Below are positions 25,642 to 27,298 of a stretch of DNA of 32,103 bases, piece after piece. The position numbers and the translations under genes were made by a program. Each line of letters starts with the position of its first letter. Position 1 is the first letter of the stretch. The notes beneath the pieces were generated by a model. That model had not been told where the DNA came from. It did not search any database and saw only the letters and a program-made list of their open reading frames with translations. This DNA is from Roseibacillus sp. (GTDB lineage: Bacteria; Verrucomicrobiota; Verrucomicrobiia; Verrucomicrobiales; Akkermansiaceae): positions 1 through 32,103 of the forward strand of contig NZAC01000065.1 in assembly GCA_002686085.1 (NCBI GenBank), read 5' to 3'.

Positions 25642-26517
25642 GTGTTAAATTTCTTGCAAGAGCACTGGCGCAGTGCAGTAGAGATCCTGATTCTCTGGGT
25701 CTTCATCTATCAGCTCTACCGTACGTTCAGGGCAACTCGGGGCGCTAGAATCCTTGTAGGGCTAGCGATGATTTTCGTGGTGTTGACACTCGCTTCCCAG
25801 CTTCTGCAGCTCGAGGTCATGCAATTCATCATTACACGGGTGGCGGTGGTGGCCGCCCTAGCTCTCCTGATTATATTCCAGCCAGAATTAAGGATGGCTC
25901 TCGCGCGCCTCGGAAGTTCCCGCTTGTGGTCTTTTAATTCGACTCAGCAGCAGGAGTTTCTGGGAACTCTCTCGGATGCGGTCTGGCAGCTCTCTAAAAA
26001 AAGATATGGAGCTCTTTTTGCAATCGAGCAGACCATGGGTTTGAAGGATCATATTGAGACCGGAGTCGAAATTAAAGGGGTGCTTAGCCCCGAGTTGGCG
26101 CTTACCATCTTTCATCCGAAAACCGCTCTGCACGATGGGGGAGTTATTTTGTCTGGAGAGAGAATTGTGGCGGCCTCGTGTGTGTTCTCGGTAAGCCAGT
26201 CCGAGGTCGGAGATCGTTCAATGGGCTTGCGGCATCGAGCGGCAATTGGTCTTACCGAGGAAAGTGACGCGGTGACGATTGTCGTTAGTGAAGAGACCGG
26301 GCAGGTCTCCATATGTATCGATGGCAAGATTGAGAGAAATCTAGAAGAGGATGCATTCAGGGAGCGATTAGAAGAAATTTTCCTCAGTGATAGTGAGGTT
26401 GACGACAATGAAAAAGGACCTGATGAAGAAGGACTTGATGAAGAAATTATTCGTGAACAACTGGATTCCCAAGATCGCGTCGCTGCTGGTGGCGATCGCT
26501 CTATGGTTTCTGATTAG
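25642..26517 (+). CDS. cdaA: Diadenylate cyclase CdaA
   Basis: Makes the second messenger c-di-AMP from two ATP. Three membrane segments lie at about residues 13-28, 36-56 and 62-80. The DAC domain follows at about 95-245 with YGALFAIEQTMGLKDHIETG, the catalytic Asp in LHDGGVIL (165-167, usually DGA) and MGLRHRAAIGL with the RHR motif (197-199). The start is GTG at 25642 with a weak site (cagggc). The last 40 residues are an acidic tail with a GPDEE/GLDEE repeat. It is the CdaA type (membrane-bound, partnered by CdaR in Gram-positives), not DisA. Its 3' end overlaps the next small gene by over 100 bases. Confidence 0.94.
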   Translation: MLNFLQEHWRSAVEILILWVFIYQLYRTFRATRGARILVGLAMIFVVLTLASQLLQLEVMQFIITRVAVVAALALLIIFQPELRMALARLGSSRLWSFNSTQQQEFLGTLSDAVWQLSKKRYGALFAIEQTMGLKDHIETGVEIKGVLSPELALTIFHPKTALHDGGVILSGERIVAASCVFSVSQSEVGDRSMGLRHRAAIGLTEESDAVTIVVSEETGQVSICIDGKIERNLEEDAFRERLEEIFLSDSEVDDNEKGPDEEGLDEEIIREQLDSQDRVAAGGDRSMVSD

Positions 26518-26572
26518 CGGATATCAGGAGGATAATCCAGTCATCGGCGACACGGTGCCGGGGAGTCGTTAG
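26408..26572 (+). CDS. Minimal CdaR/YbbR-like membrane peptide
   Basis: In another frame over the end of cdaA, a peptide of up to 54 residues carries KKLFVNNWIPKIASLLVAIA, then LWFLISGYQ. This is the pattern of the N-terminal membrane anchor of CdaR (YbbR-domain regulators of CdaA): basic, N-W-x-x-K-I, then a hydrophobic helix ending in W. CdaR normally has 300-480 residues with several extracellular YbbR domains; here only about 15 residues follow the helix before a stop, and bioD begins 57 bases later, so no domain fits. Starts at 26408, 26423 or 26438 are possible; the last two each have AAGGA four bases upstream. Whether it is translated needs testing. Confidence 0.6.
   Translation: MKKDLMKKDLMKKLFVNNWIPKIASLLVAIALWFLISGYQEDNPVIGDTVPGSR
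26414..26443 (+). repeat. 15-bp tandem repeat in two reading frames
   Basis: Two 15-base units, aaggacctgatgaag and aaggacttgatgaag, differ by one base. In the cdaA frame they code for PDEEG/LDEE-type acidic residues; in the overlapping frame they code for KKDLM-KKDLM. Each unit also holds AAGGA and an ATG four bases later, so the duplication has doubled a ribosome-binding-site/start module. Confidence 0.85.
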
Positions 26573-26629: not shown

Positions 26630-27298
26630 ATGTCTTTTCCATTGATAGTTACCGGAACTGATACCGGAGTTGGGAAAACGTATGTCACCTCTGAGCTCGT
26701 GCGTTCGCTTCGTAAAGAGGGAATAGATGCGGTGGGCTACAAACCAGTGTGCTGTGGAGACCGGGAGGACGCAGAGCTTTTGCTTGAGGCTTCTGAAAAC
26801 GCGGAGCCCATTGAAGCAATTAACCCGGTGTGGTATCAGGCGCCGGTGACGCCGTCGGTTGCGGCGGAGTTGGAGAGCAAGCCGGTTGCTCTTGGGGATA
26901 TACGTTCTCATGCAGAATCGATGGCAGAGCGCCACGAAATACTTGTTATGGAAGGCGTGGGAGGATGGGAAGTTCCCATGAGTGGGAGTGAAACTTTTGC
27001 TGACATGGCGGAAGGTCTCGGTTGGCCTACAGTGTTGGTAGTGGCGAACCGCCTCGGTGCGCTCAATCACACGCTTCTCACCGAGCATGCGATTCGAGAT
27101 CGTGGATTGCACCTCGCTGGCGTCATCATTAACCATCTTATCGAGGACCATGATATTGCCATGACGACCAACCGGGTTGTCCTCGAAGATCTGATTGCCA
27201 GTCCGGTCTCGTGCCTTGAGAATGGTGATGGACTGGCTGGTAGCGTGCTTTTGCAGGAGCTTCTGCAAGCCTTTCGAAACGGAGGATTCCGGGATTGA
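26630..27298 (+). CDS. bioD: Dethiobiotin synthetase
   Basis: ATP-dependent carboxylation of 7,8-diaminopelargonate to dethiobiotin, the next-to-last step in biotin synthesis. The P-loop is GTDTGVGKT (9-17), followed by GYKPVCCGDREDAELL, VMEGVGGWEVPM (the Walker-B-like loop) and VVANRLGALNHTLLT, with II-N-H in place of the nucleotide-binding N-x-x-x. Length 222 is normal. No other bio gene is adjacent. It begins 57 bases after the small CdaR-like peptide and may be cotranscribed with it. Confidence 0.95.
   Translation: MSFPLIVTGTDTGVGKTYVTSELVRSLRKEGIDAVGYKPVCCGDREDAELLLEASENAEPIEAINPVWYQAPVTPSVAAELESKPVALGDIRSHAESMAERHEILVMEGVGGWEVPMSGSETFADMAEGLGWPTVLVVANRLGALNHTLLTEHAIRDRGLHLAGVIINHLIEDHDIAMTTNRVVLEDLIASPVSCLENGDGLAGSVLLQELLQAFRNGGFRD

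Follow-up and report, generated by a model that had tools for sequence, protein, structure and literature searches.

A CdaR-derived gene reduced to its membrane anchor follows cdaA in Roseibacillus and across most of its class

The usual picture of CdaR is that of a sensor, with YbbR domains that detect a signal outside the cell. It is a protein of about 320–490 aa, with three to four YbbR domains in Firmicutes, and its single N-terminal helix carries the pattern K-[IL]-x-[SA]-L-x-x-A-x-x-x-[WY], which in Bacillus (L172) reads NNRWAVKIIALLFALLLYVAV. In Firmicutes, CdaR binds CdaA through the transmembrane regions (PMC10243994, PMC6368335, PMC8573169); how it regulates the cyclase has been described as unclear, and it has been reported both as an activator and as a repressor (PMC8573169). 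Streptococcal CdaA–CdaR fusions, which carry YbbR domains, are also described (PMC10243994). Among solved structures we found no chain that includes the anchor, only YbbR domains (5hqh, 2kq1, 2kxy and 4qdy) and CdaA chains. Our literature search found no paper joining Verrucomicrobia, c-di-AMP and YbbR, and only passing mentions of Akkermansia together with a diadenylate cyclase.

The window analyzed here, a 32,103-nucleotide stretch of DNA from Roseibacillus sp. (Akkermansiaceae), holds a cdaA gene with a very short gene directly downstream on the same strand. The features of the locus are as follows.

25642..26517, + strand: cdaA, with a GTG start and 291 aa, encoding a three-helix CdaA_N domain and a DAC domain with LHDGG and RHR motifs
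26414..26418, + strand: AAGGA, a possible ribosome-binding site as read from the sequence, 4 nt before ATG 26423
26423..26572, + strand: anchor-only CdaR ('mini-CdaR'), 49 aa from ATG 26423, with conserved start and frame, pN/pS 0.24 and profile matches
26423..26517, + strand: 95 nt shared by the anchor gene and the 3' end of cdaA; here the frame coding for the acidic tail of CdaA is the relaxed one
26456..26530, + strand: CdaR anchor signature NNWIPKIASLLVAIALWFLISGYQE (xNWxxKLxSLxLAxxxWxxI), matched by profile A1 at 4.4e-10 and by profile A3 at 6.1e-6 over 26456-26521
26630..27298, + strand: bioD, the next gene after the anchor gene (TIGR00347, 1.4e-47)

The cdaA product matches TIGR00159 at 2.5e-69 (over the cut-off), PF19293 at 2.7e-11 and PF02457 at 1.1e-36. 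It has the CdaA_N three-helix domain, the DAC domain and the DG[AG] and RHR motifs expected of CdaA, and it is the sole DAC protein in the genome. The active-site motif reads DGG rather than the usual DGA (LHDGG, 26130-26145), as it does in all 16 of the 16 Verrucomicrobiota CdaAs of alignment A2. A search of the window's genome (G000) for the c-di-AMP riboswitch RF00379 found none, and c-di-AMP must therefore be read out via proteins. Like the cdaR genes of Firmicutes and Porphyromonas, the short gene comes after cdaA, and many relatives have glmM downstream of it. This canonical cdaA-cdaR-glmM order holds for the majority of the class's other families; in the window, and for most of the window's family, bioD takes glmM's place.

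The sequence-only reading had described a frame at 26387-26572 that overlaps cdaA and encodes a basic N-W-x-x-K-I segment, one hydrophobic helix and a short tail. We find it exactly there, in the +1 frame relative to the cdaA 3' end, reading MKK..NNWIPKI and one hydrophobic segment followed by ~17 polar residues and a TAG at 26570-26572. The start proposed for it needs revision. Counted mechanically from GTG 26387, the frame has 61 aa, and this GTG is merely the first start codon downstream of a stop and unlikely to be the true start. A start 14 codons upstream of the signature tryptophan is conserved in the genus alignment; in the window it corresponds to ATG 26423, which on this evidence is the likeliest start of the gene and gives the 49-aa product MKKDLMKKLFVNNWIPKIASLLVAIALWFLISGYQEDNPVIGDTVPGSR. 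A 15-nt tandem repeat at the beginning of the gene (26408-26443, MKKDL MKKDL MKK) supplies additional in-frame ATGs and also extends the acidic tail of CdaA. Because this repeat added ATG 26408 (54 aa), and because ATG 26438 (44 aa) is likewise preceded by AAGGA, the product may have 44, 49 or 54 aa. The product matches no family in Pfam or NCBIfam and its gene shares bases with the end of cdaA; annotation may well overlook it as a result. Viral contigs searched with the peptide as query contained no relatives.

Selection in the overlapping frames was compared over 13 loci of the genus and the near relative L051 (14 were collected, and one with an N in the compared stretch was omitted). The stretch comprises 22 codons around the helix and lies entirely within cdaA. 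On these identical bases, pN/pS is 0.24 in the anchor frame, 1.2 in the cdaA frame and 2.3 in the third frame; only the anchor frame is constrained, and the end of cdaA is therefore the passenger. Every genome of the genus with a contig extending to the locus has the ORF. Two of the checks that the sequence-only reading had proposed, alignment of the frame in relatives and comparison of both reading frames, come out in favor of a gene: the frame is conserved, has no stops and is under purifying selection. In another genus, g3, which is very probably Akkermansia since its member L080 is sister to Akkermansia sp. L136 in the CdaA tree, the overlap with cdaA is just 23 nt. Across nine species of g3, codons 1-29 show a pS of 0.185 and a pN of 0.000, and the tail after the anchor, which ends LEEIRRSHP, has a pN/pS of 0.17. 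The frame noted at 26387-26572 is a genuine gene.

To keep the test of descent from CdaR non-circular, one profile (A3) was built from 32 anchors taken solely from YbbR-bearing proteins of Bacillus, Clostridia, Lentisphaerales and Nitrospirota and from the short YbbR proteins of the class, and another (A4) from 28 anchors taken solely from anchor-only proteins. The two align with each other at an E value of 8e-14 (hhalign). A six-frame search of 25 whole genomes with A3 recovered the cdaA-linked ORF in 25 of 25, at ~1e-3 or better in 24, and the anchor ORF is its single match in the window's genome. It is likewise the single match of the joint profile A1, which includes the window's own anchor sequence, in six frames of the 3.95 Mb genome. 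Outside the class, A1 matches the N terminus of YbbR proteins of 320-390 aa; in G108, for example, the anchor (909314-909385) adjoins the YbbR region (908492-909289). Together with the position of the gene and with intermediates that carry one to three YbbR domains, the A3 search shows at the level of sequence that the anchor ORF descends from CdaR, and it bears out the proposal that this is a CdaR reduced to its membrane anchor. YbbR (PF07949) is absent both from the protein and from the entire genome, which is 96.5% complete. Because the position after cdaA and the homologous N-terminal anchor are present, the extracytoplasmic YbbR domains are absent, and the glmM neighbor is absent here as well, we call the gene CdaR-derived: by descent it is an ortholog, but it does not qualify as a YbbR-domain CdaR. 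Within the shared signature the two sets differ at Trp 3, which is near-invariant in the anchor-only set (4.1 bits) and variable in the YbbR-bearing set (1.6 bits).

The anchor tracks CdaA closely across the class. At an E value of 0.01 it was found in 75 of 80 genomes with CdaA and in none of 33 without it (113 class genomes; Fisher 1.4e-23, with counts uncorrected for shared ancestry), and 74 of 77 matches in the class lie on the same strand no more than 1 kb downstream of cdaA. Two of the five exceptions retain a form of the helix: G231 has the anchor in a 201-aa protein (L112), and in G235 (L079) CdaA continues in frame at its C terminus into a degenerate helix resembling the anchor, without a YbbR domain. 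In the remaining three (G224, G242 and G239) no anchor was found. At L116, L121, L071 and L133 glmM directly follows cdaA and no anchor was found, nor was one found in family f3; a few CdaAs thus have no anchor at all, and the subunit is therefore not strictly required. Another DAC protein, of about 457-497 aa, occurs in sixteen of the genomes that lack CdaA, and weak DAC matches of CdaA-less genomes occur in families f7, f9 and f49. The one example analyzed (L128, in G038) combines PTS_EIIA_2, DacZ_P and DAC; a search of these genomes yielded no anchor gene. Since the anchor is absent where only this other DAC protein occurs, it tracks the membrane cyclase and not c-di-AMP as such. In a genome of the window's own family (G123, L106:256-1278), the anchor forms the C terminus of CdaA itself, fused in frame, and the chain ends 14 residues past it; the arrangement resembles the streptococcal fusions but is without their YbbR domains. 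One genome (G181) has a regular cdaA followed by an anchor-only gene (L107) and also encodes a second cyclase of 510 aa with DAC and YbbR in one chain (L123, G181:C14).

The length of what follows the anchor falls into steps. Proteins with 13-46, 96-117, 191-199, about 266-290 and about 370-420 residues beyond the signature have 0, 1, 2, 3 and 4 YbbR domains (PF07949), respectively; L016 has 6 residues beyond the signature and L025 has none. The anchor-only proteins of relatives have 32-94 aa (median 50), in contrast to the full-sized CdaRs of Firmicutes. Short YbbR proteins of the class (f51, f52 and others) occupy the same place and carry the same anchor as the anchor-only gene but differ in having 96-199 residues after it, with one or two YbbR domains. 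The CdaA tree orders these lengths: Firmicutes and then Kiritimatiellota/Lentisphaerota have three to four YbbR domains, and one branch of the class (f51, f52 and others) has one to two, with f48 and f53 as a subgroup that is anchor-only. The other, large branch (97 support) comprises Verrucomicrobiales including Akkermansiaceae, Chthoniobacterales and families f8, f11 and f12; of its 67 rows, 61 are anchor-only and 6 lack an anchor. Taken alone, the tree points to two YbbR losses within the class; we make no claim of independent losses there, because a single clade of anchor-only and anchor-less members is not rejected (AU p 0.39). The anchor-only form spans most of the class, including Akkermansia and Chthoniobacterales, and occurs once in Candidatus Omnitrophota, where a 32-aa anchor-only ORF (L199) sits just after cdaA with a 4-nt overlap and pdxJ immediately next. 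This is the same reduction as a separate case in another phylum.

The features of the helix itself are consistent with a membrane partner of CdaA. Net charge across 83 proteins averages +3.2 before the helix and 0.0 after it, and by the charge rule the protein is predicted to be a single-pass protein with its N terminus inside and C terminus outside, as in CdaR. Conservation along the helix repeats at about 100 degrees, on one helix face, with best angles of 98 and 102 in the YbbR-bearing and anchor-only sets (permutation p 0.001 and 0.002). Such one-faced conservation is, as a sequence pattern, that of a helix packed against another. We think it likely that the ORF encodes a CdaR ortholog without YbbR domains that acts as an obligate intramembrane subunit, its helix face on CdaA setting the active state of the cyclase. 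The single helix would pack by one face (W3, K6, S9, L10, A13, W17 and V/I20 of the signature) on the CdaA transmembrane domain, and this packing would bring about the active form of the cyclase by fixing its oligomeric or membrane state. By analogy with Firmicute CdaR, the contact is presumed to run through the transmembrane regions, which the in-frame fusion in L106 fits indirectly; an effect on CdaA activity, and its direction, are likewise presumed. An acidic residue in CdaA helix 1 (TM1) is invariant E/D in almost all rows; it is Gly in two anchor-less rows of f68 (L116 and L121) and kept in the other four anchor-less rows, a distribution that is only suggestive of it as the anchor's partner.

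Other readings of the gene differ widely in their probability. That the 3' end of cdaA is open by chance, or that the frame is a decaying remnant of cdaR, could be argued from the overlap and from the lack of any Pfam or NCBIfam match, and yet we give it a negligible chance: the selection contrast on identical bases, the pN of 0 past the overlap in the nine g3 species and the retention over most of the class all stand against it, and the selection and profile tests rule it out. Hardly more probable is a membrane leader peptide that couples translation of the next gene (bioD or glmM) and has nothing to do with CdaA. The gene does sit between cdaA and that next gene, but it is the next gene that varies (glmM, bioD, pdxJ and others) while cdaA is constant; L106 has the anchor within CdaA itself, genomes without CdaA have no anchor, and the profile matches CdaR and not leader peptides.

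Two further readings concern what the helix does. It might constantly stabilize or position CdaA as a structural or assembly subunit that conveys no signal, the signaling part of CdaR having been lost and CdaA being controlled otherwise (for example by GlmM), a proposal that we rate somewhat below an even chance. The post-anchor tail of just 13-46 aa is strongly variable between families and, being short and variable, leaves little to sense outside; the fusion to CdaA in two genomes also suits a permanent subunit. Against a pure anchor stands the conserved LEEIRRSHP tail of the Akkermansia-like genus, which such a protein would not need. Clade-specific conserved tails after the anchor (LEEIRRSHP, EPGSIDQILSSLGL and WGLDEIRLS.PE) could instead point to an adaptor that binds CdaA in the membrane while a protein from another gene, periplasmic or in the membrane, senses in place of YbbR. 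We regard this as improbable, as there is no consistent second neighbor (glmM, bioD, pdxJ and others) and no YbbR protein elsewhere. A separate YbbR protein filling the CdaR role, the other outcome that would have spoken against the sequence-only reading, was rejected: searches of the genome and of genomes from the same family found none. Conceivably a periplasmic sensor, highly diverged, binds the anchor in trans, which counts against the subunit reading. That reading, in which the anchor-only protein would be a permanent intramembrane subunit of CdaA, is the economical one.

The outer, sensing part has been lost and the helix kept, and the helix alone must therefore still do something worth keeping. 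By removing the sensor and keeping the helix, evolution has separated the two functions of CdaR. A partner of ~50 residues that is easily mutated thereby becomes available for the study of CdaA, and K6, S9, L10, A13, W17 and V/I20 are the residues on the face with which every CdaR is expected to touch CdaA. There is perhaps an even chance that CdaR cannot be reduced beyond its membrane helix, that a helix-only partner of ~50 residues dates back to an early ancestor of most Verrucomicrobiae and has been retained ever since, and that CdaR acts inside the membrane, with YbbR domains as optional additions lost one by one. If this is true, a single-helix microprotein would be a general control subunit of a second-messenger cyclase.
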